From Puniceicoccaceae bacterium (GTDB lineage: Bacteria; Verrucomicrobiota; Verrucomicrobiia; Opitutales; Opitutaceae), in NCBI GenBank assembly GCA_007695295.1, contig REEB01000129.1, forward strand, positions 1 through 64,000: 64,000 bases of DNA, given 5' to 3'. The translations under genes were made by a program, and so were the position numbers. Below are positions 40,195 to 57,716 of the stretch, piece by piece. Every line of letters begins with the position of its first letter. The stretch's first letter is position 1. Under the pieces are notes generated by a model. The model saw only the letters and a program-made list of their open reading frames with translations. It had not been told where the DNA came from and made no database searches.

Positions 40195-40530
40195 TCAGCA
40201 AGGCACTTCGAGCGTGAGCAGCGGCGCATGCTGCTGGGCGCCGTACACATCGCGGTCCCCGGGATGGCCCGAAACCACCGTGCGAGCCAGCACGACCTTG
40301 ACCGCCGAGGCGGGCGCGAACCAGTGGATCGCCTTCACCAGTCCTGTATCCAAGCCGTAATGACGGGCAATGACTTGGGCGGTCAGCCCGCCGCCGGCCC
40401 GCACCCGCTCGAAGGTACCGCGGTCCTGGAAGATGACATCCAGGGTCAGCTCGAAAGGCCCGGAGTTTTTGGAGCGGATGACCCGGGCCAGCGCCCGGAG
40501 CGGCGCGGTGGATGGACTGAAAGCACTCAC
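40195..40530 (-). CDS. DUF4387 protein, partner of the AtuA-like protein
   Basis: A 111-residue protein whose sequence (LRALARVIRSKNSGPFELTLDVIFQDRGTFERV, VKAIHWFAPASAVKVVLAR, SGDPGD-like SGHPGDRDVYGAQQHAPLL) matches DUF4387, the small subunit-like protein found next to DUF1446/AtuA proteins. The start is a GTG overlapping the AtuA stop (GTGA at 40527-40530); the longer alternative starting at 40614 overlaps AtuA too much. The stop codon is at 40195, four bases from the right terminal repeat of the IS relic, so the last residue or two may have been changed by the insertion. The core is intact. Confidence 0.82.
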   Translation of the reverse strand: MSAFSPSTAPLRALARVIRSKNSGPFELTLDVIFQDRGTFERVRAGGGLTAQVIARHYGLDTGLVKAIHWFAPASAVKVVLARTVVSGHPGDRDVYGAQQHAPLLTLEVPC

Positions 40531-41936
40531 CGGGTGGAGACTGCCGGAGAAGGGGCGGTTTGTCCGGTACACTGGAGGATGCGCACCGGAAAGAGCACGA
40601 CGGGGTCGCCGCACTGCCAGAGATGGTAGATGGAAAAGGCGTACACTTCGCCCGCCGGGATGTCCGAAGGTGAGAAGGGGAACGCCAAGTTGCCCGCGGT
40701 CGAAAGCCGGCCGGGGTAGCCGTGGTGGAGCAGGGTGGAGCGAGTCAGGGAGCAGACTGTGTCGGCGGTCGCGCGGTCATCCGCAACCGCCTCAATGAGG
40801 ATGCCCAGCTCGTGGGCGGGAGCATGCCGCAGCGGCTCCGGGTGACCCATGACGCCGTCTTTTCCGTAGACGCGGAAATAGAGCTCGGCGCGAAGGTTCT
40901 CGCGTCTCAAAAAATCGGATACGTGATCCCTGACGATGGCGAGGATGGCGTCGATGCCTTTGATCATGACCGGATCGCGGCATCCGGCGATCGTGATTGT
41001 GCGGCAGCCGATCCGGCGCGCACCCTCCAACTTCAGCCGGTAGGGCGGACCTGCTTGGAAACGGCTGCCGCGGACTTCGACCCGGCCGTCGCCGGTCTCG
41101 GTGAAGGAACAGTCCCGGAGATCGAGCCTGCCGCCCGGGCCGGGCAGCAGAGCGGGATCGGATTTCTCGTACAGCGTGTGGGCGGCGGTTGACTCGGCGG
41201 TAAAGATCCGGTCGGGAGAGAGTGCCGCGACGGTAAAACCGTCCCGCCGGAGGGTCCCGAGCACGCAGTCCGCCCCGGATCCCGGAGTGGCGGCGATGGC
41301 CGCGCATTCGAGGATTTTGCCGAGGTGGAGGGCAGGTCCGGGATCGAAGCCGCGCAGCAGCGGCAGGGCGGCGAAAACCCCCGGGTCGTAAGCGCGCCCG
41401 GCCAGGACCACGCCGCAGCCTTGGCGAAAGGCCGCCTGCAAGGGCTCGGGGCCGAGCTGGGCCACGATCGCGGTCGAGGCCTCGACGGCTTCGGCGGTCA
41501 GCTCGGGCGCGCCGTCGAGCCGCTCAATCCGGCCCGTTTCCAGCGCATTCAGAACGGTTGCTCGTGGCACATCGGCCGCGACCACGCCCAGCCGGAACGC
41601 CAGGTTTTCCTCCCGCGCCACTTCGTGAACGATGGCCTCGCACCAAGCCAGGTGAGGTGCGGCTCCCGCGCCCCCCGCGCTGCCGATGGCGACGGGGATG
41701 CCCCGCGGAACGGCTTCGCGCAGGATGATGCGCAAGTCGCGTTTGACGGCCGCCCGGTCGGTGAAGGATTTGCCGGATCCCAAATAATAGGGCCCCGGAT
41801 CGGTGGAGCCGGCATCGACTGCGATCAGATCCGGCTTTGCTGCCAGTCCGCGCTCAAACGAGGTTTCGGGAAATCCGTACCCGAGGATGGCGGTGGGGGA
41901 GAGGATGGTGAAAGCGGGCTCTTGCGGATCGATCAT
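40527..41936 (-). CDS. AtuA-like (DUF1446) protein
   Basis: A 469-residue cytoplasmic protein of the acyclic terpene utilisation AtuA/DUF1446 family: ILSPTAILGYGFPETSFERGLAAKPDLIAVDAGSTDPGPYYLG, IPVAIGSAGGAGAAPHLAWCEAIV, VVLAGRAYDPGVFAALPLLRGFDPGPALHLGKILECAA, and later IAGCRDPVMIKGID. In Pseudomonas atu loci AtuA accompanies citronellol degradation, but in other phyla these proteins appear with DUF4387 in organic-acid catabolism and their chemistry is not settled. The start at 41936 is the only ATG giving the family N-terminus. With DUF4387 it forms a two-gene translationally coupled operon, divergent from the ABC cluster. Confidence 0.85.
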   Translation of the reverse strand: MIDPQEPAFTILSPTAILGYGFPETSFERGLAAKPDLIAVDAGSTDPGPYYLGSGKSFTDRAAVKRDLRIILREAVPRGIPVAIGSAGGAGAAPHLAWCEAIVHEVAREENLAFRLGVVAADVPRATVLNALETGRIERLDGAPELTAEAVEASTAIVAQLGPEPLQAAFRQGCGVVLAGRAYDPGVFAALPLLRGFDPGPALHLGKILECAAIAATPGSGADCVLGTLRRDGFTVAALSPDRIFTAESTAAHTLYEKSDPALLPGPGGRLDLRDCSFTETGDGRVEVRGSRFQAGPPYRLKLEGARRIGCRTITIAGCRDPVMIKGIDAILAIVRDHVSDFLRRENLRAELYFRVYGKDGVMGHPEPLRHAPAHELGILIEAVADDRATADTVCSLTRSTLLHHGYPGRLSTAGNLAFPFSPSDIPAGEVYAFSIYHLWQCGDPVVLFPVRILQCTGQTAPSPAVSTR

Positions 41937-42049
41937 GGAAGGGGGGTGGCAGCGGCATGCTGGCAGGTCCTCCGGCAGGCACAAGACCCGGGGTGATTTT
42001 GCGTTGACCCGGGCAGGATTTTCAAACGGCCTTCGGAAAGGCGGGCGAC

Positions 42050-42826
42050 TTGCCTGCGTGTCCTCTGAACCCCCAACAGACTGCCTTTGTGAATCGCCTC
42101 TCCGGTGAGGTCCTGATCGATGCCCGGAACGTCGAGCGGCTCTATCGCGCGCGCGGCGAAAACGTCTATGCCCTCAAAAGCGTCACTCTGACCATCCGCC
42201 GGGGTGAATACGTCTCCTTGATGGGGCCCTCAGGATCGGGCAAAACCACGTTTTTCAACATGATCGGGGCACTCGATCTGCCCACGGGCGGCTCCATCAC
42301 CATCGGTGGGCGCAACCTGCGCGATCTGAGCCCGCCGGAGCTGGCCTACCTGCGTTGCGTCAACATCGGGTATATCTTTCAGAACTACAACCTGATCGAG
42401 GTTCTCAGCGCCCTCCAGAACGTCGTCCTGCCAATGGAGTTTCTCGGCCTTTCCAAAAAGGAGGCGGAGGCACGGGCGGCGCGCCTGCTTGAGCGGGTCG
42501 GACTCGCGGAGCGCATGCACCACCTGCCCGGCGAGCTTTCAGGCGGCCAGCAGCAGCGGGTGGCGATCGCCCGTGCTCTCGCCAACGACCCCAGCCTCAT
42601 CCTTGCCGACGAGCCGACCGGCAACCTCGACTCCAACACGGCGGTGACCATCGTCGAGCTGCTCAGCGGCCTCAGCCGCGAACGGGGCGTGACGGTGGTC
42701 TCCGCCACCCATGACCACCGCATGCTCGATGTTTCCGACCGGGTCGTTTACCTGCGCGACGGGCGGGTCGAAAAAATTGTTTCCCGGGCGGAGCTGGAAA
42801 TCTCCGTGGGAACCATCGCGGACTGA
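42050..42826 (+). CDS. ABC transporter ATP-binding protein (MacB/LolD/FtsE type)
   Basis: A 258-residue ATPase with Walker A GPSGSGKTTFFNMIG, Q-loop YIFQNYNLIEVLSALQNV, signature LSGGQQQRVAIARAL, Walker B LILADEPTGNLD and H-loop VSATHDHRML. The family resembles LolD, MacB and FtsE, which power FtsX-type permeases rather than ordinary importers. The start is taken as TTG 42050 because GGAAAGG lies 8 bases upstream; a GTG at 42089 is an alternative and would lose 13 residues. It is followed 6 bases later by a DUF6785 protein and then by the FtsX-like giant, so it probably energises that permease. Confidence 0.93.
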   Translation: MPACPLNPQQTAFVNRLSGEVLIDARNVERLYRARGENVYALKSVTLTIRRGEYVSLMGPSGSGKTTFFNMIGALDLPTGGSITIGGRNLRDLSPPELAYLRCVNIGYIFQNYNLIEVLSALQNVVLPMEFLGLSKKEAEARAARLLERVGLAERMHHLPGELSGGQQQRVAIARALANDPSLILADEPTGNLDSNTAVTIVELLSGLSRERGVTVVSATHDHRMLDVSDRVVYLRDGRVEKIVSRAELEISVGTIAD

Positions 42827-42832
42827 AGCCCC

Positions 42833-45730
42833 ATGCCCGCAACCATCGCCACCCTTGCGCTCGGGATTCTTCTCATCCTGGTCCTGACGCCCCTGGCGCA
42901 ATTTCTGACGGTGATGACGGTCAATGCGGATATCGAGACCGGCACTCCGGTAGGTTGGGCGGTGGGCCTGATTTTCAGCCTCGTCCTGGTGATGGCCGCA
43001 TTGCGGGCGTTGGCCCGGTGGGCGCCACTGGGGCCCGGCCGGCTCGTCGTGCTCTATGCTATGCTGACCCTGGCAGTGCCGCTGATGAATCTCGGACTCG
43101 TGCGGCCTTTTTACAATGCCTCCATGGCGGTGGTGGAGACTTACCTTCACTTTTCGGTCAACACCTACCGCATTGCCTACAACTCCCTTCATCCCGACTG
43201 GTTTCCGAAGATTCCAACCCTCGATGGTCTCGCCTGGCACCAGGCTGAGCGGACGCTCGAGCTGCTGGACGACTCCGCAGCCGGCCGCGAACGGGAGGAA
43301 GCCGGGGCGTTGCTGGCCCGGGCGCTCCGGGAAGCCGAAAGTGGATTGAAGTTGCTTGGCGAGGCCGAGGACGCGGCGATCGTCCGCACGCTCGCTGATG
43401 TCCGTGACCGCTACGGGCGCGCGGCCCTCCGTGGCGCGGTCGGCCGGCTCGGGCCGGACCAGATCCTCAGGATCGATGATCTCGGCGCCGGGGACGTCTT
43501 GGCTGCTTGGGGTCTGGCGGCCCCCTTGGCGGAGCGGCGGGCCAAGGTGATGGAGGCCAGCCGGCGGGCCGCGGCGGAGCTGCCCGCGCTTCTCAATGGC
43601 ATCAGCGAGCTGGAGCTGAGCCTGGTGCCGGAGGTGCGTTCCGCCATCGACCGCAGTTCCCAGGACCGCCTCGAAGCGGAGCTGCGGCGGCTGGCTCCGG
43701 AGGAGCACGACGCTCTGGAAAGCCGGGTCGCGACCGTGGTTGCTCCCCGCTTCGATGCGCTCCGGGAGCGGGTGGCGGCCTTGGGGCGGGCGGACCACGC
43801 GCTCGTCCGCCGCATGTTGCAGGAACGCGCCCGCGAACGGCTCGCGGCCATGGAGCGCTCCGCCTATGAGGCCGAACTGGCGGGTTTCGTCTACCGCGCC
43901 AACCGCAACGACCGCCTCGCGATGGCCCGACAGGATGGGACCGATGGTAGTCCGAATATGAATACCTACGGCTTCCGCCACACTCTCTGGCAGGATCCGG
44001 CGGCGCGCCAGGCCCGGGAGCGCCAGTCTTGGAGTGAGAACCTCTCCGATCTCGTCGCAGGCATCCCCTGGCAATTGTGGAGCGGTCCGCTCCTGCGCTG
44101 GGGCACGCTTTTTCTCTGCATCTTCCTGTTTCTCATGTGCCTGGCGGAGTGGCTGCGGCGCAAGTGGGTGGAACGGGAAAACCTGCCCTTCCCGCTGGTG
44201 GAAATCGCCGATCATCTCCTCCGGCCGGACCGAAAGCTGGAAAACGCGGAAGATCCCCGCGAGCCGGAGCCTCGCGACCGGCCCTTCAGCCCGGCCCTGC
44301 TCTCCGGCCTCGCCCTCGGTTTTCTCATTCTCTCCCTGGAAGCGATGGGACACTACAACCTCACCGGCGGAGAGTGGACCCTTTTCTTCGATGTATCCAA
44401 AAACTTGTTCACCACCGGTGCCCTCGCCGAGATTGACAAGGTGTTTTTTGTCATCTCCCCCATCGTGCTGGGGATCGCCTTTCTCGTCAGTCTCGAGGTC
44501 AGTTTTTCCATCTGGGTCAGTTTTGTGATCTACACGGCGGTGTTCTGGATCATCGGACTGCATCCAACGGCGATCCGCGACAGCGTCTATACCGGCTGGG
44601 CGGACGGGCGGTTTTATCCCTTCCCCATGGAGCAGATGATGGGCGCCTGTTTATGCTACACTCTCATCGTGCTATATAAATCCTGGAGTGCGGCCCGGGC
44701 ACCGGCACCGCCCGGTCCCGAGGGAGTCCTGGTGGCCTCGCCATTGATGAAAGCGGGCTTGGTCGGGCTGCCCCTGGTGGTGGCGGGGTTGCTTTGGAAC
44801 CTGGGCGTGCAAAGCATTCTGCTGCTGGTCCTCTTCGGGCTGGCGGTGCTGGCACAGACCATCGCGGTGGCCCGCGTGCGGGCGGAGACCGGCCTGCCCA
44901 CGCACCACATTTCCTACGAATTCACCAAGTTTCCCATGGTGCTCGGACTGACCGGGATGACCGGATCAAAGGTCTATGTCTCGTTTATATCAGTGGTGTT
45001 TCTCCCGGTGACGTTGCTTTTCCGGACCCTGCCGCAGATGTTGGAAAACCTCGAACTGGCCCGGCGGACGAAGGTGGCTTACGGCACCCTCGCCGTCGCT
45101 TCGATCCTGGCGGTGGTGACGGCCATTGGCGCCGGGTTGGTGAGTTTCCTCCTCTACTCCTACTATCTCGGCGAAAGCTTTCAGGGTGCCAGCGTGCATG
45201 CCGGCCAGGGGCCGGCGGGGGCGACCCAGTTGGCTTCCTATCCGCTCTGGGTTTCCCACTTTCGCGGGGAAGCGGGACTCGACCAATATACTTCGGTGCA
45301 CTGGGTGCGGATTGTCTTCGCGGTGGTGGGCTTCGGTGTGGTGGCGGCGCTGGCCTGGCTGCGGGGTCGGTTTCTTCGTTTTCCCATCCATCCGGTTGGT
45401 TACATGGTCGTGCTGCTGACGATTTATTACGGCTGGGCTTCCCCCTACTTCAAGGGGGATGCCGGAACCGGTGGGGCGACCTGGGTCTGGGGCAGCGTGC
45501 TCGTGGCCTGGATCCTGAAAAAGCTCATCATCAAATACGGCGGCATGAACACCTACAAGGCGGCCAAGCCCTTCTTCATCGGCCTGGTGGTTGGATCGGT
45601 CCTGGCGATCTTTGCCTGGAACGTGCTCGACCTGACCGCGACCCTGCTCGCCGAGCACTGGCTGGAAAGCCCCGGAGACTTCATCCGCGCTTTTCTCGAC
45701 ACCCGGCCGTATTCACCCAGGTATTACTGA
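42833..45730 (+). CDS. Large DUF6785-type integral membrane protein
   Basis: A 965-residue polytopic protein. Three N-terminal membrane segments (residues ~5-105) are followed by ~280 mainly helical, charged residues, perhaps extracytoplasmic (e.g. ELPALLNGISELELSLVPE, RRMLQERARERLAAMERSAYEAEL), and then ~10 membrane segments to the C-terminus. WQLWSGPLLRWGTLFLCIFLFLMCLAEWLRRKWVERENLPFPLVEIADHLL matches DUF6785, found in transporter-like proteins of Planctomycetota and Verrucomicrobiota and resembling OPT/YSL transporters. Function is unknown. It is 6 bases downstream of the ABC ATPase gene and 4 bases upstream of the FtsX-like gene. The helical insert is unusual for a transporter. Confidence 0.75.
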   Translation: MPATIATLALGILLILVLTPLAQFLTVMTVNADIETGTPVGWAVGLIFSLVLVMAALRALARWAPLGPGRLVVLYAMLTLAVPLMNLGLVRPFYNASMAVVETYLHFSVNTYRIAYNSLHPDWFPKIPTLDGLAWHQAERTLELLDDSAAGREREEAGALLARALREAESGLKLLGEAEDAAIVRTLADVRDRYGRAALRGAVGRLGPDQILRIDDLGAGDVLAAWGLAAPLAERRAKVMEASRRAAAELPALLNGISELELSLVPEVRSAIDRSSQDRLEAELRRLAPEEHDALESRVATVVAPRFDALRERVAALGRADHALVRRMLQERARERLAAMERSAYEAELAGFVYRANRNDRLAMARQDGTDGSPNMNTYGFRHTLWQDPAARQARERQSWSENLSDLVAGIPWQLWSGPLLRWGTLFLCIFLFLMCLAEWLRRKWVERENLPFPLVEIADHLLRPDRKLENAEDPREPEPRDRPFSPALLSGLALGFLILSLEAMGHYNLTGGEWTLFFDVSKNLFTTGALAEIDKVFFVISPIVLGIAFLVSLEVSFSIWVSFVIYTAVFWIIGLHPTAIRDSVYTGWADGRFYPFPMEQMMGACLCYTLIVLYKSWSAARAPAPPGPEGVLVASPLMKAGLVGLPLVVAGLLWNLGVQSILLLVLFGLAVLAQTIAVARVRAETGLPTHHISYEFTKFPMVLGLTGMTGSKVYVSFISVVFLPVTLLFRTLPQMLENLELARRTKVAYGTLAVASILAVVTAIGAGLVSFLLYSYYLGESFQGASVHAGQGPAGATQLASYPLWVSHFRGEAGLDQYTSVHWVRIVFAVVGFGVVAALAWLRGRFLRFPIHPVGYMVVLLTIYYGWASPYFKGDAGTGGATWVWGSVLVAWILKKLIIKYGGMNTYKAAKPFFIGLVVGSVLAIFAWNVLDLTATLLAEHWLESPGDFIRAFLDTRPYSPRYY

Positions 45731-45734
45731 CGCC

Positions 45735-48700
45735 ATGACGACCAACCGGAGCAACGGGCGGATCAATGGCCGCGGACAGGGTGGGGCGGGCTCCCCGGCC
45801 CGGGATGGGTCGTCGCCGGCCCGGTGGATCCGGCTTGCCATGGCCTTGATCCCGGCTCTCTCGGCGGCGGCGGCGGCCGGCATCGCGGGGGACCTCAACC
45901 GTACCTTGGTTTCCCAGCTCGCACCCGGCGAACGGCATCGGTTGGAGTCGCTGGCTGCGCTTTCCCCTTCGTTTCTGGAAAGCCTCGAGGCCTTGGCCGC
46001 GCCTTCGGAAGTCGAAGTGCGCACCCGCGCCCTGCTGGAGGTGGACACACTTTTCATCGGCCATCGCTCCACCGATGAAGAAGGACGCGCCCGCATTCAC
46101 CACCACTTGGAGGCCGTTGCCCGGGAGCTGGAGCCGTATGGCGTCGAACATCTCGGTGTCCTCCGCGCCGAAGCGACAGTCCCCGTGGAACTTGACCGAC
46201 GGGTCGATCCCGCCGACCGCGAACCGCCCTCGCGGATCGAAGCCGGCGGACAGTCCTGGCGAATCCATCCGGTCTGGCCCAACGGAGCCATGCCCTCCCT
46301 GGCACCGGCGGAGGGGTTGAGCGGCCCGCTCATCGACACGGGGCACGCCAGCTGGGAGGCGATTGAAGGGCTGCCGCTCGATGGGGCGATTGCCTTGATG
46401 GATTTCGCCGGAGGACGGAACTTCGAGCGGCTCTTCGCCCACGGAGTCAGGGCGGTGATCGTATTGGAATCGCCTTCGATGAGCCGCCACCAGGCCGAGA
46501 ATCTTTTCTTCAACACTCCGGCGGCCTTTCCCAGATTCTACGCGGAAGCCGCGGAGGCCCGCGAACTGCGCGCCCTGGCCGCCACTCCGGGCACGCGAGT
46601 GACGGTCCACGGTGGCGCCATCTATGAAAACCGGATCGTTGAGACCCATTTCCTCTACCTGCCGCCCTCACCCGAGCGCACGTTTCAGCTCAAGGAGGGC
46701 GACCTGCTCGAACTCATCGCCGCTCACTATGGCCTGCGCAGCCGGGAGCTGATCGACGCCAACCAGCTCGAGTCGCCGGTTCTCCGCCCGGGGCAGCAAC
46801 TCCTCATTCCGGGCCGGGGCGCCACCCACACGGTTCGCGCCGGCGAGTGGGCGGACCGGCTGGCGGCCTTTCATGGACTGGACCCGCGGCGTCTGCTGGA
46901 GCACAATGGGCTCGGCGCCGAAGAGTTGGAGCCGGGGGTGGAACTACGCATCCCCGTGGCGGAGGAGCCGATCACGTTTTTCATTCCCATCGACAGCGTC
47001 TCCACGGTGCCCGGGGTGGCCCATGGCGCGAAGGTGGCGGGCAATTTAACGGCTGGTCTGATGCTCTTGGAACACTTTGCGCGCTCGCCCTTTCTTCACC
47101 GCAGCAAAGGGATCCTCTTTGTCTTTACGGATGGAGACTCCGTCGGCGGACTCGCCAGCCGCACCTTCGGCGAATACGCCATGCTGCGGGACGGGACCTT
47201 CGCATCGCGGGCGCAGCCGGCCGCAATGGGTGTGTCGCTGGAACGGTTGCGCGAAGCGGAGGCTTGGTTCGAGGGTGGGGCGGCGCCCGAGGCTGCCGCC
47301 CGCTGGCTGGTCGAGGAGTGGCTCCACGTACGCCTGGAGGATGTGAGGGTGGCGCTGGCGGAAGAGCGGATCGAGCACTTGGTGAAGCTTCCCACGCTCG
47401 AACCCTCGTCGGCCGCCCATGCCGCCACCGCCGCGGTCGTCGCTGACCTCGACAACCGCCTCGCCGAGCTCCTGGCGCTGAGGCGGCGTTCGGTGCTGGA
47501 CCGCAGCTTGGGCCAGGCCCAGCGCCTGGAGCGGCTGGCGGCGGAGCTGGCCCGTCCGGAGACGGCCGCCCGCTTCGGCCCGCTCGGGCTCGACCGCTCC
47601 ACTCTAGCGGTCCGTTTCCGGGCCGAATTGGAGGAAGTCCGGCGGCGGGAGGCCTACCATCGTAACAACCTCGAGGTCGTCGCCACCGTGCTCGACCGGC
47701 TGCAGGGGGCGGGTGGGGGCATCCGCCTCGGCTGGGCCATTGATCTCTCGTCCGGTTCTCCGCACCTCGGCATCACCGAGGGCAATGCCAGCCAGTTTCG
47801 TGTGCCCTATCCCGTCGCCTCCGGCCCGCTCGTGCGCGCCATCGGCACGCGTTTCCGCTCGGTCCTGGCTTTGGCCGCGGAACGGGCGGGCTGGCCGGAG
47901 GAGCGGGCCTTTGTCACCGACGAGGACCGGCGGGATTTCCCCGTGCTGCCGCACTTCGCGCCAGCCGCTTATCCGGAGTTTTGGACGCTCGGCAACCTCG
48001 CGGTGCTGCCCCTCGGAACGCTCAACGATCGTCTCGAATTGCTGGATACACCCCATGATGTGCCCGACCGCTTTGATTTCACCAACCTCGCCCTGCAGAT
48101 CCGCGGCCTGCTCGTGCTTGCCGCCCTCCAGGTCGAAAGCCCGCTCGACTCGCCGGCCCCTTCCCGGTTGACCCGGCGCCGCTTCGGCACCCTTGAGGGC
48201 CGCACCCTCCAGTTCAACCTCCGCTCCGGCATCGACGCCCAGGATCCGGTCCCGGGAGCCATCGTGTACTATCCCGCCACCAAAGCCTGGGAAGGAGAGA
48301 TCTCCGCGCACAACTCCATGGTCTACCGGGGCGTGCGCAAGGGGCTAGTCCGGATTGCCGGGCTCGACGGCCGCTACCGGATCCCCCTCGAAGCGGTTGA
48401 CCTGCCTTCCTGGCGGTATTCGGTTTTTGCCTACGGACTGAACCGCGAGAAGGCCCTCTTCGACCACGTCCACACTTTCGGCCAGGTCGGCACGGCCAAG
48501 CAATCGCCGGTCTTCCGCCTGCTTGACAGCCGGGTGGCGGAGAAGAACCTGGTCATGGCCGAGCTGCATCCGCTGGCCTTGGTGACCGGCCCGGATCCGG
48601 CCGACTACAGCACCATCGGAGGCGGGCAGTATGCGGAGCAAAATTACCAGGTGGTCGATGCGGTTCTGCGCGGCGAGCCGCGGCACTATGCCCTCGACAA

Positions 48701-51329
48701 TCCCCGCCTGCACTACGGGGAGCACCAGCCGCAGACCACCATCCTCTACCTCCCGGAAGGCTCCCGGGGGTCGCTGCTCTTCCAGTCGGGCGGCCGCTAC
48801 CGGCTCATGCTCGTGGGGGAGATGGATGCGGGCGGACGCGGCCGCGGCTGGAGGATCGGTCCGCTGCCGGACGGTGACCCCAATCGCGTGCTCCGGCTGG
48901 CCCCGTTGGCAATCGCCCGGCAGATGCAGGCGCTGGCGGAACACCGGCGCGATGAGTTCGCCCGCTTCGGGATCGCCTCGGAAACGGTCGACGCCGCCCT
49001 CCGCCGGAGCGCGGAGCAGGCCGCCCTCGCCACCGAGGCCGCCGCGGAGCACCGCTGGCGGGAAGCCGAGGGCGCCGCCCGGGAGGCCTGGGGCATCCTG
49101 CTGCGTACCTACCCGCGCGTCCTCCAAATGGGCCGGGAGGCCGTCTTCTCGGTCATCCTCCTGATGGCGCTGCTCGTGCCGGCGGCTTTCTTTCTTGAGC
49201 GACTGTTGGTCGGCGCCCGCCACATCGTCGCCCGCCTCGCGGGTACAGCGGGGTTCTTTGCGCTCGGCGTCCTGTTTCTCAACACCTTTCATCCCGCCTT
49301 CCAAATCGCGATTTCCCCCGTGATCGTGGTTGTCGCCTTCATCATGATCCTGATGTCGGTGATCGTGCTGGTGCTGGCCTATGGCCGCTTCGAAACCCTG
49401 CTGCGGCGGGCCCGAATCGAAGGCGGGGAGATCGAGAGCGAAGAGATCGCCCTCGCCAGTTCGCTGGCCACCGCCCTCTCCCTCGGGGTCTCCAACCTCC
49501 GGAAACGGCCCTCCCGGACTTTTCTGACCACCCTCACTGTCACCGTGCTGACCTTTTCGATCGTGGCCTTCGTCTCCGTCTCGGGCAGCGACGCCATCGC
49601 CAAGCGTAGTGTGGAGCTGGATACGGAAGTGGACGGACGCACGATCGTACCCGAGCCGCCGGTTTATGACGGAGTTCTCTTCCGCGCCTTTTACTGGCAG
49701 TCCCTGAGCGAGGCTTTTCTCTCCGCCATCGCAAGCGAGTTCGGCTCCCGGCACGAGACCGCCGTGCGCGCCCACTACATCGAGGTGGAAGGCGGCAACA
49801 ACGCCGACCGCGAGGGCGTCAACCAGATCGAAATCCGCCGGGGCGCCGCCACCACCATTGTCACCGGCCTCATGGCTTTCGAGCCCGCGGAAACGCGCTT
49901 CACGGGGCTGCACCGGGCGGTCGGCGGGGAGCAGTGGTTTCGCGCCCGGGATCCGGACACGGGCCGGGAGGCGGACCGCTTCACCGTCATCCTTCCCGAG
50001 ACCGCCGCCCACGATCTCGGGATCACCGGCGACGAAATCCTCGATGCCGACGGCAACCGCCGGCCGGAGGATGAACTGCCGCGGGTTTCCATGATGGGGC
50101 AGTCTTGGCGGGTGATCGGGATTCTGGATACAGAACGGGCGGACCGGATTCGCGATGTGAACGGCCGCAGCCCCGCCATGGTCGACTACCTGCGCAGCGC
50201 CATGACCCCGGGAGCGACCGGGGATCTGATCAACGAACCCACCATGGCCTACCACCTGAGCTGGCGCGAGCTGGCCCTGGTGCCGTGGGAGGCGCGGCGC
50301 GACGTGGGCGCGCGGCCGCGCTCGGTGGCGGTGAAATTCGCACCCGGGGATGACGGGGCGGCGTTTTTCGAAGGCATCGCGCTCCGGCTCAATCAGCCCG
50401 TCTTCGCCCATGTCGGCGGCGAACTGAGTTTCGTCACCACCCGCGTGCAGCGCACGGTGGGCGGCCTCGCGATGATCATTGTGCCCGTGCTCCTCTGCAT
50501 TCTGATCGTGCTCAACACCATGCTCGGGACCGTGGAGGAGCGGCGGGGTGAGGTCGGCATGCTCGGGGCCATCGGCCTTTCGCCCAACCAGATCTCGTTT
50601 TTGCTCCTCTCGGAATCAACCGTCTATTCTGTGCTCGGGATCGTGCTGGGTATCTTCGGCGGACTGTTTTTCGCCAATGCGATCAACTGGCTCGCGGCGG
50701 CGGGCATCCCGGTCTTCAGCACCCTTTCCTTCAATTTCACCTCGGTGACGGCGATGGCGCTCGCCCTTGCCACGGGCGGGGTCGTTTTGCTGGCCACCCT
50801 CATTCCGGCCCGCAAGGCCGCCGCGCTGGCCGCTCCCAGCGGGATGGCGCGGTGGGTGCTGCCGCCGCCGGCGGAGGACCGCACCATTGTCTTCGACCTG
50901 CCCTTCACCCTCACCCGCGGCAACGCCCTCGGGATGGTGGTGTTTTTCCGCCAGTTTCTTTCCAACCACCTCGAAAGCACCAGCGCCGACTTCAACTGCC
51001 GGCAGATCCGCGCCGGGCTGGCCGTCGATCCGGAAAACCGGCCCGCCCTCGAGCTGAGCGCCTCGATCTGGCTCACGCCCTACGACCTCGATGTGGCCCA
51101 GGAATTCCGGATGCAGGTCCAGGCCTCCGGCACGGAGGGCGTCTTCGCGGTCCGGATCATCCTGCGGCGGGTTTCCGGGGCGGAGGAAGCGTGGTTGAGG
51201 ACCAACTACGGCTTTCTCGATCTCGTGCGTCGGCAGTTCCTCTTCTGGCGCAATCTTCCCCCGGAGCGCCGCGAAGCCTACCTGAAGGAAGGCCGCCGGC
51301 TTCTTGAAACCACCGCCAGCCATGCCTGA
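45735..51329 (+). CDS. Giant FtsX-type permease with PA-like, LysM and pseudo-M28 extracytoplasmic regions
   Basis: An 1864-residue membrane protein. TM1 is near residues 30-52. A PA-like region spans ~205-310 (GAIALMDFAGGRNFERLFAHGVRAVIVL). Two LysM-like repeats lie at ~314-357 (FQLKEGDLLELIAAHYGLRSRELIDANQL) and ~363-408 (HTVRAGEWADRLAAFHGLDPRRLLEHNGL). An M28-like segment at ~413-470 (KVAGNLTAGLMLLEHFARSP, GILFVFTDGDSVGGLASRTFGE) lacks obvious metal ligands. TMs resume at ~1136; the FtsX/MacB core follows (NLRKRPSRTFLTTLTVTVLTFSIVAF at ~1255; VPVLLCILIVLNTMLGTVEERRGEVGMLGAIGLS at ~1580), then a soluble C-terminus of ~150 residues. It is a likely partner of the ATPase encoded upstream. Role inferred: ATP-driven envelope remodelling or sensing. 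Confidence 0.82.
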   Translation: MTTNRSNGRINGRGQGGAGSPARDGSSPARWIRLAMALIPALSAAAAAGIAGDLNRTLVSQLAPGERHRLESLAALSPSFLESLEALAAPSEVEVRTRALLEVDTLFIGHRSTDEEGRARIHHHLEAVARELEPYGVEHLGVLRAEATVPVELDRRVDPADREPPSRIEAGGQSWRIHPVWPNGAMPSLAPAEGLSGPLIDTGHASWEAIEGLPLDGAIALMDFAGGRNFERLFAHGVRAVIVLESPSMSRHQAENLFFNTPAAFPRFYAEAAEARELRALAATPGTRVTVHGGAIYENRIVETHFLYLPPSPERTFQLKEGDLLELIAAHYGLRSRELIDANQLESPVLRPGQQLLIPGRGATHTVRAGEWADRLAAFHGLDPRRLLEHNGLGAEELEPGVELRIPVAEEPITFFIPIDSVSTVPGVAHGAKVAGNLTAGLMLLEHFARSPFLHRSKGILFVFTDGDSVGGLASRTFGEYAMLRDGTFASRAQPAAMGVSLERLREAEAWFEGGAAPEAAARWLVEEWLHVRLEDVRVALAEERIEHLVKLPTLEPSSAAHAATAAVVADLDNRLAELLALRRRSVLDRSLGQAQRLERLAAELARPETAARFGPLGLDRSTLAVRFRAELEEVRRREAYHRNNLEVVATVLDRLQGAGGGIRLGWAIDLSSGSPHLGITEGNASQFRVPYPVASGPLVRAIGTRFRSVLALAAERAGWPEERAFVTDEDRRDFPVLPHFAPAAYPEFWTLGNLAVLPLGTLNDRLELLDTPHDVPDRFDFTNLALQIRGLLVLAALQVESPLDSPAPSRLTRRRFGTLEGRTLQFNLRSGIDAQDPVPGAIVYYPATKAWEGEISAHNSMVYRGVRKGLVRIAGLDGRYRIPLEAVDLPSWRYSVFAYGLNREKALFDHVHTFGQVGTAKQSPVFRLLDSRVAEKNLVMAELHPLALVTGPDPADYSTIGGGQYAEQNYQVVDAVLRGEPRHYALDNPRLHYGEHQPQTTILYLPEGSRGSLLFQSGGRYRLMLVGEMDAGGRGRGWRIGPLPDGDPNRVLRLAPLAIARQMQALAEHRRDEFARFGIASETVDAALRRSAEQAALATEAAAEHRWREAEGAAREAWGILLRTYPRVLQMGREAVFSVILLMALLVPAAFFLERLLVGARHIVARLAGTAGFFALGVLFLNTFHPAFQIAISPVIVVVAFIMILMSVIVLVLAYGRFETLLRRARIEGGEIESEEIALASSLATALSLGVSNLRKRPSRTFLTTLTVTVLTFSIVAFVSVSGSDAIAKRSVELDTEVDGRTIVPEPPVYDGVLFRAFYWQSLSEAFLSAIASEFGSRHETAVRAHYIEVEGGNNADREGVNQIEIRRGAATTIVTGLMAFEPAETRFTGLHRAVGGEQWFRARDPDTGREADRFTVILPETAAHDLGITGDEILDADGNRRPEDELPRVSMMGQSWRVIGILDTERADRIRDVNGRSPAMVDYLRSAMTPGATGDLINEPTMAYHLSWRELALVPWEARRDVGARPRSVAVKFAPGDDGAAFFEGIALRLNQPVFAHVGGELSFVTTRVQRTVGGLAMIIVPVLLCILIVLNTMLGTVEERRGEVGMLGAIGLSPNQISFLLLSESTVYSVLGIVLGIFGGLFFANAINWLAAAGIPVFSTLSFNFTSVTAMALALATGGVVLLATLIPARKAAALAAPSGMARWVLPPPAEDRTIVFDLPFTLTRGNALGMVVFFRQFLSNHLESTSADFNCRQIRAGLAVDPENRPALELSASIWLTPYDLDVAQEFRMQVQASGTEGVFAVRIILRRVSGAEEAWLRTNYGFLDLVRRQFLFWRNLPPERREAYLKEGRRLLETTASHA

Positions 51330-53373
51330 GGACGCTTCCAGCCCCGCCAAACCGCCGGCCAAGGGCGGGGACCGTTTTTTCGATGCCCGCTTCTCCATCG
51401 AAGCGATCCAGCACGAACCCTACGAAAACGGCTTCACCTGGCGCACGGTGCTGGGGGCGTTCTTCATCGCCTTTGTCATGCTGCCGGGACTCATCTTCAT
51501 GGGTCTCATGATCGGGCAGGACATGGGCACGGCGGCGGAGTGGGTCACGATCATCCTTTTTGTCGAGATCGCGCGGCGGTCCTTCATGACGCTGCGCAAG
51601 CAGGAGCTTTACATGCTCAAGTACACCGCCGCGCAACTCACCCATGTGGCCGGCGGCCTCGCGCTGGGCGGGGGCATGTTCGGCATGCTGGTCTGGAACC
51701 GCTACCTGCGCCACAGCGAGCCTTTTCACAGCTTCGGCATCGCCCACCAGGTTCCCGACTGGGTCTCCCCCTACGGAGACGCCGCCTTCACCGAGCCCTT
51801 CACCTCCCCGATCTGGCTGCCGGTCATCACCGTGACGCTGCTTTCGATGGTGCTCTCCAAGCTGACGCAGCTCGCGCTCGGCTTCATGGCCTACAAGGCG
51901 ACCGCGGACATGGAGAAGCTGCCGTTCCCGCTCGCGCCGATCAACGCCGAGGGGGCGATCGCCCTGGCCGAGACCAGCCAGGAAAAAAACAAGCGCGGCT
52001 ACCGGCAGTACTGCTTTGCCATCGGCGTGATCCTCGGGGCGGCTTTCGGCGCCTTTTATGTCGCCGTGCCGACCTTGACGGGCGCCTTTTTGGAGCGGCC
52101 GCTGCAGCTCATCCCGATCCCTTTCCTGGATTTGACGACCTCCTTCGAATCTTGGCTGCCGGCCGCGCCCATCGGGATCAGCCTCAACCTCGGCCTTCTC
52201 TTCATCGGCTTCGTGCTGCCCTGGCGGATCGTGGTCGGGATGGTGGCCAGCACGCTGCTTTTTCAACTCGTCCTCAACCCGCTGTTTCAGCGCGCGGGTT
52301 GGCTGCCGACTTGGGCGCCGGGGAAAGGCGCGATCGAAACAAATCTCTCCAACAGCGTCGATCTCTACCTCTCGATCGGGATCGGAGTGGCCTTTGCGAT
52401 TCTCTTTGTCGGCTTGTTCGGGATTGCCCGGGCCCTCCTCAATCACCGGCGCAATCGAGACCCCGGGGAGGGTGGATTCGACCTGCGCAAACTCTGGGAA
52501 CGGGACCGGGAGCGCGGGGATCCCCCTATCTGGGTGCCGCTGCTGGTCTGGATTTCGGCTTCCATCGGCTACGTGGTTTTTTCCAATCACCTCGTCAACT
52601 CCGGTCTGCCCGCGGAAGAGCGCTTCAGCATCTGGTGGCTGATCGGGTTCGCGTTTTTCTGGACGCCGATGAACACCTACATCAACGCCCGCATGTCGGG
52701 CATTGCCGGCCAGCACGCCGGGGTGCCGTTCGTCAGCGAAGGCGCGATTTTTCTGTCCCAGCACCGCGGGGTGGCGATCTGGTTCGCGCCTCTGCCCATC
52801 GCCAACTACGGCTACATGGCCGACCTGCTGCGGGAGACCCAGCTCACCCGCACCCGCTTCACCTCGATCCTCAAGGCGGAGCTGCTGGTCTTTCCGCTCC
52901 TCCTCTTTGCGTCGTTTCTCTACTGGAGCTTCATCGTGGGTTTGGCCCCCATCCCGTCGGACAACTATCCCTACGTGCAGCAGTTCTGGCCGCAGTTTGC
53001 GACCATGCAGGCGCTCTGGGCCTCATCGATGCAGGAAGGGCAGACCCTGCTCCTCGATGCGCTCAAGCCGGAAGTCATCCTCGGCAGCCTGGCCGGTTCG
53101 CTGGCGCTCTTCTCCGGCTTCGGAGTGGCCGGGATCAGCGCCCAATACCTCTACGGCGGCATTACCACCCTCACGCAGCTGCCCCACATGGCCGTCCCGA
53201 TTTTCATCGGAGCGCTGCTCGGCCGCTACGTCTTTGCCCGCCGCTTCGGCGTCGAAAAATGGACGAATTATACCCCCATCCTCGCGGTCGGCTTTGCCGC
53301 CGGCATCGGCCTGATCGGGATGTTCAGCATTGCGATCAACTTCCTCTGGTCGTCGATCGGAACGGGGTATTGA
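51322..53373 (+). CDS. OPT/DUF6785-like integral membrane transporter-type protein
   Basis: A 683-residue protein with about 14 hydrophobic segments after a ~35-residue soluble N-terminus. YKATADMEKLPFPLAPINAEGAIALAET and the central WWLIGFAFFWTPMNTYINARMSGIAGQHAGVPFV are typical of OPT-like transporter proteins, in the DUF6784/DUF6785 group. It differs from the 965-residue protein upstream in lacking the large helical insert, so the two may form a pair. The ATG at 51322 overlaps the preceding stop by 8 bases and gives a plausible N-terminus. It ends the operon; after it comes a repeat-containing, gene-free region to 54062. The transported substrate is unknown. Confidence 0.78.
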   Translation: MPEDASSPAKPPAKGGDRFFDARFSIEAIQHEPYENGFTWRTVLGAFFIAFVMLPGLIFMGLMIGQDMGTAAEWVTIILFVEIARRSFMTLRKQELYMLKYTAAQLTHVAGGLALGGGMFGMLVWNRYLRHSEPFHSFGIAHQVPDWVSPYGDAAFTEPFTSPIWLPVITVTLLSMVLSKLTQLALGFMAYKATADMEKLPFPLAPINAEGAIALAETSQEKNKRGYRQYCFAIGVILGAAFGAFYVAVPTLTGAFLERPLQLIPIPFLDLTTSFESWLPAAPIGISLNLGLLFIGFVLPWRIVVGMVASTLLFQLVLNPLFQRAGWLPTWAPGKGAIETNLSNSVDLYLSIGIGVAFAILFVGLFGIARALLNHRRNRDPGEGGFDLRKLWERDRERGDPPIWVPLLVWISASIGYVVFSNHLVNSGLPAEERFSIWWLIGFAFFWTPMNTYINARMSGIAGQHAGVPFVSEGAIFLSQHRGVAIWFAPLPIANYGYMADLLRETQLTRTRFTSILKAELLVFPLLLFASFLYWSFIVGLAPIPSDNYPYVQQFWPQFATMQALWASSMQEGQTLLLDALKPEVILGSLAGSLALFSGFGVAGISAQYLYGGITTLTQLPHMAVPIFIGALLGRYVFARRFGVEKWTNYTPILAVGFAAGIGLIGMFSIAINFLWSSIGTGY

Positions 53374-54062: not shown

Positions 54063-54695
54063 CTATTGGGGCCTTGGTTCTGGCATCGTCCAGCACCGGG
54101 TGTATGCACTTCCCCTTACCGGCTGAGTGAATTTGCGCCTTTCGTAGTATCCCTCCATAAATGACCGAAACACTTGATATTCCTCATGCAAACCCGGCAA
54201 GGGATGCCCAGCAACGATGTATGCTGTCACGCGATCTTCTTTTTGAGCGAATAAGGCCCACCCTGTTTTTATTGCTAAAAGAGTGAGCTCGTCACCTTCA
54301 TTTATTGCCAATCCCGGATTCCACCAACTGGTTGACCCCCACCCCCTAATGTAGTGAACATCCCGAAAGGCTGCCCATTCGATATTCGTTTCCTCCGAAC
54401 CAGCGAACAAGTCTCCTTTGAGCAAAGTGGCCATTCCTTGCACCGGCAGATCAACTCGGATGTTGGTTATTCCACTTGTGGGGTAGTCGAATTGGAGCAA
54501 CACGCAAATCCGTTCTATCCCAGGCGGGATTGGAGTCATTCCAAGGCCAGCGAACATCAGCTCTGATTGCTCGTGGGTGAGTTGCGCCGGCGGACGTGGC
54601 GATACCCAAGGCCTGGCCAACAGGCCCAAAAGGATCAGGACGGCCAGAACAATCATGCCGATCCCCAAACCCAATCTCCTCTTTTTCTTATTCAT
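54063..54695 (-). CDS. Membrane-anchored protein of unknown function
   Basis: A 210-residue protein with a lysine-rich start and one membrane segment at residues ~9-27 (LGIGMIVLAVLILLGLLAR), then about 180 extracytoplasmic residues with no recognised motif. Notable stretches are ELMFAGLGMTPIPPGIERI and SEETNIEWAAFRDVHYIRGWGSTSWWNPGLAINEGDE. Its base composition is markedly less GC-rich than the genes on either side, a sign of possible transfer. The start overlaps the TGA of a frame on the same strand upstream (ATGA at 54692-54695). The C-terminal codons run into repeat-like DNA near 54063. Confidence 0.6.
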   Translation of the reverse strand: MNKKKRRLGLGIGMIVLAVLILLGLLARPWVSPRPPAQLTHEQSELMFAGLGMTPIPPGIERICVLLQFDYPTSGITNIRVDLPVQGMATLLKGDLFAGSEETNIEWAAFRDVHYIRGWGSTSWWNPGLAINEGDELTLLAIKTGWALFAQKEDRVTAYIVAGHPLPGLHEEYQVFRSFMEGYYERRKFTQPVRGSAYTRCWTMPEPRPQ

Positions 54696-55072
54696 TCATG
54701 CCTTTTCCTGCTTGGGCTGTTTTCCCAGCGTCGGTCGGAAAGCCGGTTTCCGTCCAAGTCGTGGACGCCTGTCCCGGCCTGGACTGGGAAAACCTCGGAC
54801 GTCTCCGGCAGGAAGGCCTGGCGGGTTTCATCGACGGGCTGACTGTCGAAGACGGCTTTCACTTCGACTGGACTGTAGGCCGGCGCGGCGGATCCGGCCA
54901 GCGCGACCTCACGGTGAAATTCCCGCCCGGCGCCCTGGGTGGACTGGTTGATTGGGTTTACGGTGCAGGTGGACGAGCAGTTGTTGCGTATGGCGCTGGC
55001 CCGGTTGCCCTTGCCATCGATGCAGTAGCCGAAGCCGCAGCCGGGCAGGGCGCGTCCAGTTTTCCGGGCATG
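54692..55072 (-). pseudogene. Possible gene remnant translationally coupled to the unknown membrane protein
   Basis: A minus-strand frame of about 126 codons, open from a TGA at 55073-55075, reads as protein-like sequence (PGCGFGYCIDGKGNRASAIRNNCSSTCTVNP with four cysteines, then AREFHREVALAGSAAPAYSPVEVKAVFDSQ). Its TGA overlaps the next ATG (ATGA), the pattern of real operons in this genome. No ATG, GTG or TTG start is available in it, so it may be the 3' end of a broken gene. The overlapping plus-strand frame is also long, so the call is uncertain. No other feature is supported between 54696 and 55213. Confidence 0.35.
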
Positions 55073-55213
55073 TCAGCAGAAACGACTCCGTCGTTCCGCC
55101 ACGGAGAGACGGGATTGCGTTTTGTTGAGGCGGCCGGCCCCGTCAGAATCAAGCAGCCTCGTATGGGACCACGGCAGTCGGTGTTTTGGAAGGTCCCCGT
55201 GGTTGGGAGAGCG

Positions 55214-55852
55214 TCAGTGTTGGGCAGGCCGGGTGCGGTCAATCGGCTGAGTGGGATCCTCCAGCCAGCGCTCGTAGTCGGCCCGTGGCACGAAGCGCAG
55301 CGAGGCGGAGTTGATGCAATACCGCAGGCCGGCGGGGCGGGGACCGTCGGGAAAGACATGCCCAAGGTGGCTGCCACAGATGATGCAGTGCACTTCGGTG
55401 CGGACCATGCCGTGGCTGCGGTCGATCTCCTCGCCGATGAAGCGGGCCTCCGCCGGTTGGGTGAACGACGGCCAGCCGGTGCGGGAGTCGTACTTGTGCC
55501 GGCTGTCAAAGAGCGGAGTGTCGCAGCCGACGCAGAAGTAAACCCCGTCCCCACGATGGTTCCAGAAGGCATTATGGAATGGCCGTTCCGTTCCGTGCTG
55601 CCGGGCGACGCGGTATTGCTCCTCGGTGAGAAGGGTGCGCCACTCGGCATCGCTGCGCTGCACCCGCCGCTGGCTGTGGTCGAGCACGACCGAAGAGGGG
55701 AGCCCGCAGGCCGAAAGCTCGTCCCCGGGGCAGACCACTTCTTTGGAGGCCGGTGCCAAAGGCTGGAGGCGGAAGCCGTTGCCGGCGATTGCGATACCGG
55801 CGAGGAGCAGCACGGCGCTGCCAAAAATGGCGGAGAGGACGGGGGCTTTCAC
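55214..55852 (-). CDS. msrB: Peptide-methionine (R)-S-oxide reductase, membrane-anchored
   Basis: A 212-residue MsrB, which reduces the R-form of oxidised methionine. The C-terminal ~140 residues carry the family pattern: SDAEWRTLLTEEQYRVARQHGTERPF, DGVYFCVGCDTPLFDSRHKYDSRTGWPSFTQP with the zinc Cys pair, VHCIICGSHLGHVFPDGPRPAGLRYCINSASLRF, with the catalytic Cys in RYCINS. The N-terminal part is a membrane segment (LSAIFGSAVLLLAGIAIAG), so the protein probably faces the periplasm. The start is taken as GTG 55852 because the frame further upstream is not protein-like; support for it is limited. Confidence 0.93.
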   Translation of the reverse strand: MKAPVLSAIFGSAVLLLAGIAIAGNGFRLQPLAPASKEVVCPGDELSACGLPSSVVLDHSQRRVQRSDAEWRTLLTEEQYRVARQHGTERPFHNAFWNHRGDGVYFCVGCDTPLFDSRHKYDSRTGWPSFTQPAEARFIGEEIDRSHGMVRTEVHCIICGSHLGHVFPDGPRPAGLRYCINSASLRFVPRADYERWLEDPTQPIDRTRPAQH

Positions 55853-56051
55853 GACGGCAGCAAACGACGACTCCCCCCGGCGCGCAAGTGGGAGGCCATG
55901 ATTGTTGGCAAGGAGTAATGTGTGATGAGTAATGAGTGACCCCGCGGTCGCGGGGCAGGCCGGGCGCGGAGCGAACCGGACTAATGCTGAAAATAGGGCG
56001 GGGGACCCCGCGGTCGTAGGCGCCAAGGTGACAAGGCGGGTGGTGGGAAGC

Positions 56052-56072
56052 AAGGGACCTGGAAGGTCCCTC
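56052..56072 (-). terminator. Hairpin after prfC, possible terminator
   Basis: A perfect seven-pair stem GGGACCT/AGGTCCC with a 3-base loop, read on the minus strand, 19-38 bases after the prfC stop. Only TT-GCTT follows, so termination is uncertain. The rest of 55853-56090 contains a duplicated GACCCCGCGGTCG (55938 and 56013) and a GAGTAATG tandem near 55912, and no gene that I can support. Confidence 0.45.
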
Positions 56073-56090
56073 AACTCTGGCGGGGGGCTG

Positions 56091-57716
56091 CTAAACCCGG
56101 GCCGCTTGCGCCGAGGGAGGGCGGAGGAAGAGCTTCAGTCCGGGGTTTTTCTCAAGGATGAAGTCCACATGCCAGCCGCTGGGAAAGAGGAGGACAAACC
56201 GACCTTCGCGGTCGAGGGCGCGTGCCGCGCCGGTCGGCAACGGCAGGGCGCCGAAGGCCTCTTCGGAAAAGTCCGCCGGCAACCAGCGGGCCGCTTTCCA
56301 GGCCGTCGGCTCAAGGCGGGCGGTGACCCGGTACTCGGCTTCGAGCCGAAAGAGCACGACATCGAACTGGAGCGGACCGACCGCCCCGAGCAGCGCGATG
56401 GCCGCGGGGTTGCGCCACAGGGAGAAGCCCTGCACGACTTTTTCCTGGAGGAGTTGTTCGAGGCCGGAGCGGAAACGCTTGAAGGCACCGGTATCCGGAT
56501 TGTGGAGAAAGGCGAAGGACTCCGGGGAGAAGGCCGGGATGCCTTCATACTCGATCCGCGGATCTTCTGTAAGTGTATCGCCGATACCGAATTCCGCATG
56601 GCCGGCCAGGCCAAGGATGTCGCCGGGCCAGGCTTCGTCGGCGGTTTCCCGGTCCTGGCCGAAGAGTTTTTGGGAAAACGAAAGCCGCACGGTGCGGCCG
56701 CTCTGGGCGTGACGGACCGTCATGTCCCGCGAAAAGCGGCCGGAGCAGACGCGGAGGAAAGCGACTTTGTCCCGATGACTCGGATCCATGTTGGCCTGGA
56801 TTTTGAAAATGAAGCCGGAGAAGGCGGACTGGAGGGGATCGACGGGGCCCTCCCGGCCGGTCTTGGGACCGGGGGCGGGAGCGTGGCGGAGAAAGCCGTC
56901 GAGGAGCAGCTCGATGCCGAAGTTGTTGATCGCACTGCCGAAGTAAACCGGGGTGGTGTCGCCGCCGAGGACCGCCTCGGGGTTGAGCGAGGCACCCGCG
57001 CCTTCGAGCAACTCCAGCTCATCCTTGGCGGTATCGAGCACTTCCGGATCGAGGAGGTTGTGCAGCTTGGGGTCGGTGGGGTCGGCAACCGAGAGCGGAG
57101 CGCGGAATTTGCCCCCCGGCGTGCGTTCGAAGAGGTGGAGCTGGTTTTCGAGCCGGTCGAAGAGGCCGCGGAAGGTGGGTCCCATGCCGAGCGGCCAGGT
57201 GACCGGAAAGGCATGGAGCTGGAGTGACTCCTCGATCTCGTCGAGCAGGGCGAGCGGCTCCTTGCCGGGGCGGTCGCACTTGTTGATGAAGGTGACGATG
57301 GGCACGCTGCGTTCGCGGCAGACCTCGAAGAGCTTGCGGGTCTGGCTTTCGATGCCCTTGGCGCCGTCGAGGACCATGATGACGGCATCGACCGCGGTGA
57401 GCACGCGGTAGGTGTCTTCGGAGAAGTCGCGGTGACCGGGGGTGTCGAGCAGGTTGACCGCGAAGCCCTTGTATTCAAAATTCAATACCGTGGAGGAGAC
57501 GGAGATGCCGCGCTGTTTTTCCAGCTCCATCCAGTCGGAGGCGGTGGAACGCTGGTTTTTGCGTGCCTTGACGGAGCCGGCCAATTGGAGAGCGCCCCCG
57601 TAGAGGAGGAATTTCTCGGTCAGGGTGGTTTTCCCGGCATCCGGGTGGGAGATGATGGCGAAGGTGCGGCGGCGGGCGTGCTCGCGGCGGATGGCCTCTA
57701 TGGAAACGGTCGTCAT
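56091..57716 (-). CDS. prfC: Peptide chain release factor 3
   Basis: A 541-residue translational GTPase that removes release factors 1 and 2 from the ribosome after termination. GTPase motifs: AIISHPDAGKTTLTEK, EKQRGISVSST, LLDTPGHRDFSEDTYR, TFINKCDRPGKEPL. RF3-specific features include SVKARKNQRSTASDWMELE and the second-domain PVYFGSAINNFGIELLLDGF. The C-terminal part (GPLQFDVVLFRLEAEYRVTARLE) is intact. The length is normal for the family. It is divergently placed from the large repeat protein at 57865, with 148 bases between the starts. Confidence 0.97.
   Translation of the reverse strand: MTTVSIEAIRREHARRRTFAIISHPDAGKTTLTEKFLLYGGALQLAGSVKARKNQRSTASDWMELEKQRGISVSSTVLNFEYKGFAVNLLDTPGHRDFSEDTYRVLTAVDAVIMVLDGAKGIESQTRKLFEVCRERSVPIVTFINKCDRPGKEPLALLDEIEESLQLHAFPVTWPLGMGPTFRGLFDRLENQLHLFERTPGGKFRAPLSVADPTDPKLHNLLDPEVLDTAKDELELLEGAGASLNPEAVLGGDTTPVYFGSAINNFGIELLLDGFLRHAPAPGPKTGREGPVDPLQSAFSGFIFKIQANMDPSHRDKVAFLRVCSGRFSRDMTVRHAQSGRTVRLSFSQKLFGQDRETADEAWPGDILGLAGHAEFGIGDTLTEDPRIEYEGIPAFSPESFAFLHNPDTGAFKRFRSGLEQLLQEKVVQGFSLWRNPAAIALLGAVGPLQFDVVLFRLEAEYRVTARLEPTAWKAARWLPADFSEEAFGALPLPTGAARALDREGRFVLLFPSGWHVDFILEKNPGLKLFLRPPSAQAARV

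Follow-up and report, generated by a model that had tools for sequence, protein, structure and literature searches.

ECF transporters combine a shared energising module with many specificity subunits, and OPT proteins are found elsewhere as secondary transporters. Type VII ABC systems act by mechanotransmission, ATP being used to move periplasmic parts, and it is their partner proteins that define their function (PMC12646458). For the barley OPT-type protein Yellow Stripe 1 (HvYS1), an elevator-like mechanism has been discussed (PMC9691689). The operon described here lies in a 64,000-nucleotide stretch of a Puniceicoccaceae genome (the window). It shares a MacB-type ATPase, an FtsX-core permease and a large periplasmic loop with FtsEX-EnvC, LolCDE, MacAB-TolC, BceAB and YbbAP-TesA, and function-defining partner proteins with Type VII ABC systems in general (PMC12646458). 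Unlike the known Type VII systems, it has two OPT-fold membrane proteins as partners and an M28/PA pseudo-peptidase fused to one of the permeases. Our best reading is that of a hitherto undescribed Type VII (FtsX/MacB-like) ABC system whose partners are without precedent; it carries no name in Pfam, NCBIfam or the literature searched.

Gene content and conservation of the system

The window's copy consists of four rightward open reading frames separated by 6 nt and then 4 nt, the last two overlapping by 8 nt, just as the original prediction had placed them. The genes, here called A2, D, G and O, and the main features within them are:

42089-42826, + strand: A2, MacB/LolD/FtsE-type ABC ATPase (Pfam ABC_tran, 3.4e-33)
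42833-45730, + strand: D, DUF6785/DUF6784 membrane protein of 965 aa with an OPT-like fold (PF20581, 2.8e-43; PF20580, 1.1e-17)
43190-44050, + strand: insert of D (about residues 120-406), predicted all helical (AlphaFold2 pLDDT mostly >90 over about residues 130-410)
45735-51329, + strand: G, giant FtsX-type permease of 1864 aa (PF02687, 2e-13; hydropathy; family alignment)
46002-47219, + strand: first part of the M28/PA-like ectodomain of G (about residues 90-495; profile against PDB, AlphaFold2, Foldseek)
46680-46964, + strand: two LysM domains inserted in G (residues 316-410; Pfam LysM, 1.7e-13)
47967-48179, + strand: final part of the M28-like fold in G, with xDTPxD where true M28 enzymes have 'YHTPxD' (profile, alignment)
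50472-50822, + strand: Pfam FtsX domain of G (residues 1580-1696)
51322-53373, + strand: O, OPT-superfamily membrane protein of 683 aa from ATG (PF03169 matches of relatives; hhalign to D)

The frame of A2 is open from TTG 42050 (42050-42826), and GTG 42089 is the likelier start because the closest orthologue, in a relative, begins at residue 17 of the window frame. A2 of the window shares 73% identity with its counterpart in the complete cluster of L034. None of the four window proteins scores above cut-off in NCBIfam, and O of the window itself has no Pfam match. An AtuA-family gene (window 40530-41984, - strand) is divergent from the operon, and two open reading frames of 440 and 431 aa without Pfam match lie downstream of it (54596-57227, + strand).

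A search with G identified three further copies within the genome of the window and another in a related member of the order, and the neighbourhoods of these copies hold D, G, O and ATPases. When 85,000 species genomes were scanned for the O family, at least 563 relatives were found, the best 80 of which belong to Verrucomicrobiota (Opitutales), Planctomycetota, Armatimonadota, Abditibacteriota, Latescibacterota, Gemmatimonadota, Omnitrophota, Nitrospirota, Hydrogenedentota, Lentisphaerota, Desantisbacteria, Bacillota and others, these phylum names being those given by the submitters, in most cases for metagenome bins. With profile models made from the copies, G was located beside O at most loci; at 91 of 113 loci it immediately precedes O on the same strand, with a median of 15 nt between the two, and 16 of the 18 genomes without G near their O locus carry it elsewhere. 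D was likewise present in 19 of 20 genomes, most of them picked for an O locus showing no D. Among 145 genomes of the window's phylum, O occurs in 18 and G in the identical 18, while D occurs in 18, 17 of which are in common with the O/G genomes; the hypergeometric chance of such co-occurrence, kinship being ignored, is 2e-23 for O-G and 5e-20 with D. A second phylum, that of G206, which includes the genomes behind L106 and L110, both labelled Latescibacterota, has G in 59 and O in 58 of 64 genomes, O being likewise missing from the five that have no G. The pairwise-distance matrices show correlations of 0.85 (O-G), 0.92 (O-D) and 0.96 (G-D), and none of 2000 permutations reached values as high. 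Chance adjacency of the genes is ruled out by the co-occurrence, the synteny and the matrix correlations. At many Armatimonadota-type loci, no D, ATPase or small permease (s, below) adjoins G-O.

D, G, O and the ATPases very probably form one conserved functional unit, and the genomes place this unit, by submitters' labels, in more than 10 phyla. Conservation of the four-gene block, proposed as a check by the original prediction for Verrucomicrobiota or Planctomycetota, was found in both and far beyond them. Independent occurrence in related genomes and a different conserved permease partner for the ATPase had been named as refuting outcomes; G almost never occurs without O, and no other conserved permease displaces G.

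As a block the four genes hold together; as a count, four falls short. At fuller loci the system also has a small FtsX permease (s) and an additional ATPase (A1); both occur in most complete relatives and are absent from the window. Among 28 well-flanked loci from the window's phylum and its close PVC relatives, s is present in 21 and two ATPases in 16. A search of the window's genome with the s of a close relative gave a 58% match on G000:C160 (next best 45%), and the gene directly after this s encodes an ATPase with 78% identity to A1 of the relative. The pair on C160 (L157:6301-7691) apparently represents the displaced partners, the system seemingly being complete but split in the window's genome. 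The earlier interpretation is thus supported in part, for a system larger and far more widespread than it had stated.

The giant permease and its ATPases

The catalytic motifs of A2 are intact (Walker A GPSGSGKTT, signature LSGGQ, Walker B LILADEPT and the H-loop), as they are in every positional class of the system's ATPases. G is laid out as an N-terminal TM helix, an M28-PA-like ectodomain, extra TM helices, an FtsX core with a large loop and a conserved C-terminal cytoplasmic domain. PF02687 was found in 10 of 10 G proteins; the core TM helices lie near residues 1264-1282 and 1575-1690, with about 290 residues between. The features that define a Type VII system, namely a MacB-type ATPase with intact catalytic motifs, an FtsX-type permease domain and a large extracytoplasmic loop between core TM1 and TM2, are all present, and the small permeases match lolCE/MacB models. 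That the ATPases power the FtsX permeases is very probable, and the partner of the ATPase is an FtsX-type permease, as had been proposed.

The nearest NCBIfam models of A2 are LolD, DevA, MacB and FtsE, all sub-threshold. The window ATPase and permease differ from the named Type VII systems in scoring under every named cut-off, which agrees with the original placement of the system outside FtsEX, Lol and MacAB. Membership of FtsEX was rejected on an FtsE score of 206.8 (cut-off 264.85) and the lack of a recurrent peptidoglycan hydrolase or EnvC neighbour; of LolCDE on scores of 222 for LolD (cut-off 307.75) and 21 for lolCE (cut-off 362.45); of MacAB-TolC on the separate ATPase gene, a MacB score of 217.6 (cut-off 966) and the lack of a recurrent MacA-like neighbour; and of YbbAP-TesA on a YbbA score of 185.5 (cut-off 336), no esterase recurring among the neighbours.

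Extracytoplasmic modules had been recognized in the permease from the outset, while their nature as an M28-type pseudo-peptidase had been missed. A profile of 71 ectodomains compared with the PDB matched M28 aminopeptidases with a PA insert best (2ek8, 4.6e-28; YwaD, 3e-25), followed by transferrin receptor, nicastrin and nicalin, and Foldseek returned the same M28 enzymes (6hc6, 2.7e-11) for an AlphaFold2 model of the G ectodomain with pLDDT 92.4. G shares its M28 and PA fold with these aminopeptidases and with their relatives among pseudo-enzymes (transferrin receptor, nicastrin, nicalin). G differs from both in being fused to an FtsX permease, in the helical and LysM insertions of its ectodomain and in its active-site region, where H, EE and YHTP have mostly become Y, GH and DTP. 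In the alignment of 71 members, His is kept at the metal-binding position of the M28 site in one, most having Tyr instead; Gly-His stands in most members for the catalytic Glu pair, whose second position is E in two; and the YHTP of true M28 enzymes is mostly DTP, His having given way to Asp. The M28 fold is thus kept while the metal ligands and the catalytic Glu are lost, and on this ground an active peptidase was rejected; judged from the alignment, the G ectodomain is a conserved M28/PA pseudo-peptidase.

The LysM insertion is restricted to the window's clade (the window, L034/L047, L040-L046, L121 and L133). LysM or cell-wall binding was rejected as the core function because these domains are confined to that one clade, and the 'cell-wall-bound element' of the original prediction, which rests on LysM, does not extend to the system at large. 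Bins labelled Opitutales, Phycisphaeraceae and PVC group fall together in this one small clade (L034, L040-L047, L121, L133), pointing to transfer between phyla or to mislabelling of bins.

The OPT-fold pair

Profile searches of O and D against PDB sequences gave nothing useful, and fold comparison alone yielded matches. With an AlphaFold2 model of D (pLDDT 85.8), the sole significant PDB matches in Foldseek were structures of barley Yellow Stripe 1 (7wst, 4.4e-5; 7wsr, 9.7e-5; probability 1.0). The large helical insert that had been read from the sequence of D is confidently modelled by AlphaFold2; at the same site, about half of the relatives have 23-58 aa and the rest 154-374 aa. The description of O as OPT-like holds through its relatives, 7 of 46 of which match OPT PF03169 (best 7.2e-11). 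Alignment of O with D by hhalign covered only 82 columns with few sequences and 591 columns with more (probability 97.3, E 2.6e-11), and the LPFP motif is common to both. By the PF03169 matches of O relatives, the fold of D and the homology between the two, D and O belong to the OPT superfamily and are, as far as profiles and models tell, two diverged homologous OPT-type proteins. A D-O heterodimer is plausible by analogy because HvYS1 is a homodimer (PMC9691689). The pair resembles OPT/Yellow Stripe (YSL) transporters in the fold of D, close to 7wst/7wsr, and in the PF03169 matches of some O relatives; in contrast to those transporters, the system has two diverged partners linked to an ABC engine, and D has a variable insert and Pfam families of its own.

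D is the most duplicated part, with up to 44 PF20581 matches in one genome, G and O having about 2-12 each. Massive duplication of DUF6785 was observed in Armatimonadota-/Latescibacterota-type genomes (G272, G234, G206; L149:7323-12324), mostly away from G and O, and the domain is absent from all 14 well-known control genomes. In some genomes D is thus far more numerous than G and O, much like the S components of ECF transporters; in contrast to the latter, the engine is of FtsX type, there is no sequence relation, and modularity of the ECF kind is a possibility here. D probably sets substrate choice, since it carries the variable insert and is the most duplicated part. Given the frequent single, duplicated D genes, it may act alone as well.

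A candidate mechanism and its rivals

We consider it probable that the operon encodes one copy of a conserved inner-membrane machine of several subunits, in which a Type VII ABC engine is joined to an OPT-fold pair, the association of the parts being known here from genomes alone. A natural assembly would comprise two permeases (G and s), two ATPases (A1 and A2) and two OPT proteins (D and O). In this assembly, G and s would form a permease heterodimer powered by A2 of the window and A1 of contig C160, as LolD powers LolC-LolE, and ATP binding and hydrolysis would move the periplasmic arm of G by mechanotransmission. In the dead M28 pocket a ligand, probably derived from a peptide or a glycan, would be bound without being cleaved, and motion of the arm would load, gate or empty the D-O pair, which would provide a path across or out of the inner membrane. 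The chance that the ABC engine physically contacts D-O, as judged from the genomic association, is somewhat better than even, while ATP-coupled transport through D-O is doubtful. A new transport principle, in which a D-O heterodimer is driven or gated by an FtsX-type engine with a pseudo-peptidase arm and exchangeable D proteins share O-G-s-A in an ECF-like manner, is unlikely.

We know of no other ABC engine coupled to OPT-type transporters, and if the parts touch, this would be the first known case and would give DUF6785 and DUF6784 a role. In the literature searched, no paper was found on DUF6785 or DUF6784, none combining a pseudoenzyme, M28 and an ABC transporter, and none pairing PqqD with FtsX. 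The machine, nameless as it is, occurs in more than 10 phyla, one of which has it in 59 of 64 genomes, and a ready subunit list is provided by the way in which D, G, O, s and the ATPases are present or absent together.

O and D could be merely ordinary secondary transporters that share an operon with an ABC engine. There would then be two machines in one operon, a Type VII ABC system (G, s and the ATPases) that either remodels the envelope or pulls a molecule out of the membrane, and an OPT pair, D-O, that imports the product, coupled in function without contact. The secondary transport carried out by OPT proteins elsewhere would accord with such an arrangement, as would the occurrence of D alone in many copies, beside sulfatase genes in some genomes, and of G on another contig or far from O in others. 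The elevator-like mechanism discussed for HvYS1 points the same way (PMC9691689). However, G and O are near-inseparable across phyla, their ends usually touching or overlapping, which is tighter than is usual for separate machines, and the D-G distance correlation of 0.96 also speaks against them; two machines are a rather unlikely explanation, if the strongest of the alternatives.

Two further proteins accompany the system at other loci and are absent beside the window's copy:

L117:13212-13640, L111:13264-13692, L039:14787-15185 and about 28 others: p, PqqD-like protein
L117:12162-13142 and 23 others (24 loci): x, protein of about 310 residues with repeated W...P..W motifs

x is apparently a duplicated domain, and two x proteins tested against NCBIfam matched no model. 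The presence of p with G, s or ATPase genes in about 30 loci, together with its matches to PqqD chaperone models under cut-off and the derivation of the G ectodomain from an aminopeptidase fold, would suit a RiPP-like peptide maturation and export system in which p binds the leader, the ABC engine exports and the M28-like domain was once the leader peptidase. A RiPP system is recognized by a leader-binding protein, a maturase and a precursor; here, judged on the first two of these, p is present in many relatives but no radical SAM or other maturase recurs among the clustered neighbours, the M28 site is dead in nearly all members and p is missing from the window operon, which leaves this explanation improbable. 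A LysM-anchored FtsEX-like machine for cell division or peptidoglycan remodelling, to which an FtsX-type permease with two LysM domains and an FtsE-type ATPase would be suited, is highly improbable, as LysM is confined to one small clade, the ATPase is under the FtsE, LolD and MacB cut-offs, no peptidoglycan hydrolase recurs among the neighbours and the system occurs, unlike a division protein, in 18 of 145 genomes of the phylum with several copies per genome.

For the favoured machine, in which the ABC engine is joined to D and O, a peptide link is hinted at by the M28 and OPT folds, and a glycan link by the sulfatases beside D and the GH10 gene adjoining the cluster of a close relative. By Pfam, the neighbours of single D genes are mixed; sulfatases are the commonest at 5 of 88 proteins, a figure that, having no full background control, is only a lead. 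Examples are:

L183:3898-5346: sulfatase, with D at 5360
L193:3833-5347: sulfatase, with D at 5335
L185:7136-8569: sulfatase beside a single D

In two cases the sulfatase and D overlap or are separated by 11 nt. In close relatives (L042:12112-13554, L034 and L047), the cluster is followed by a glycosyl hydrolase of GH10 type and by a protein of 630 aa that has no Pfam match.
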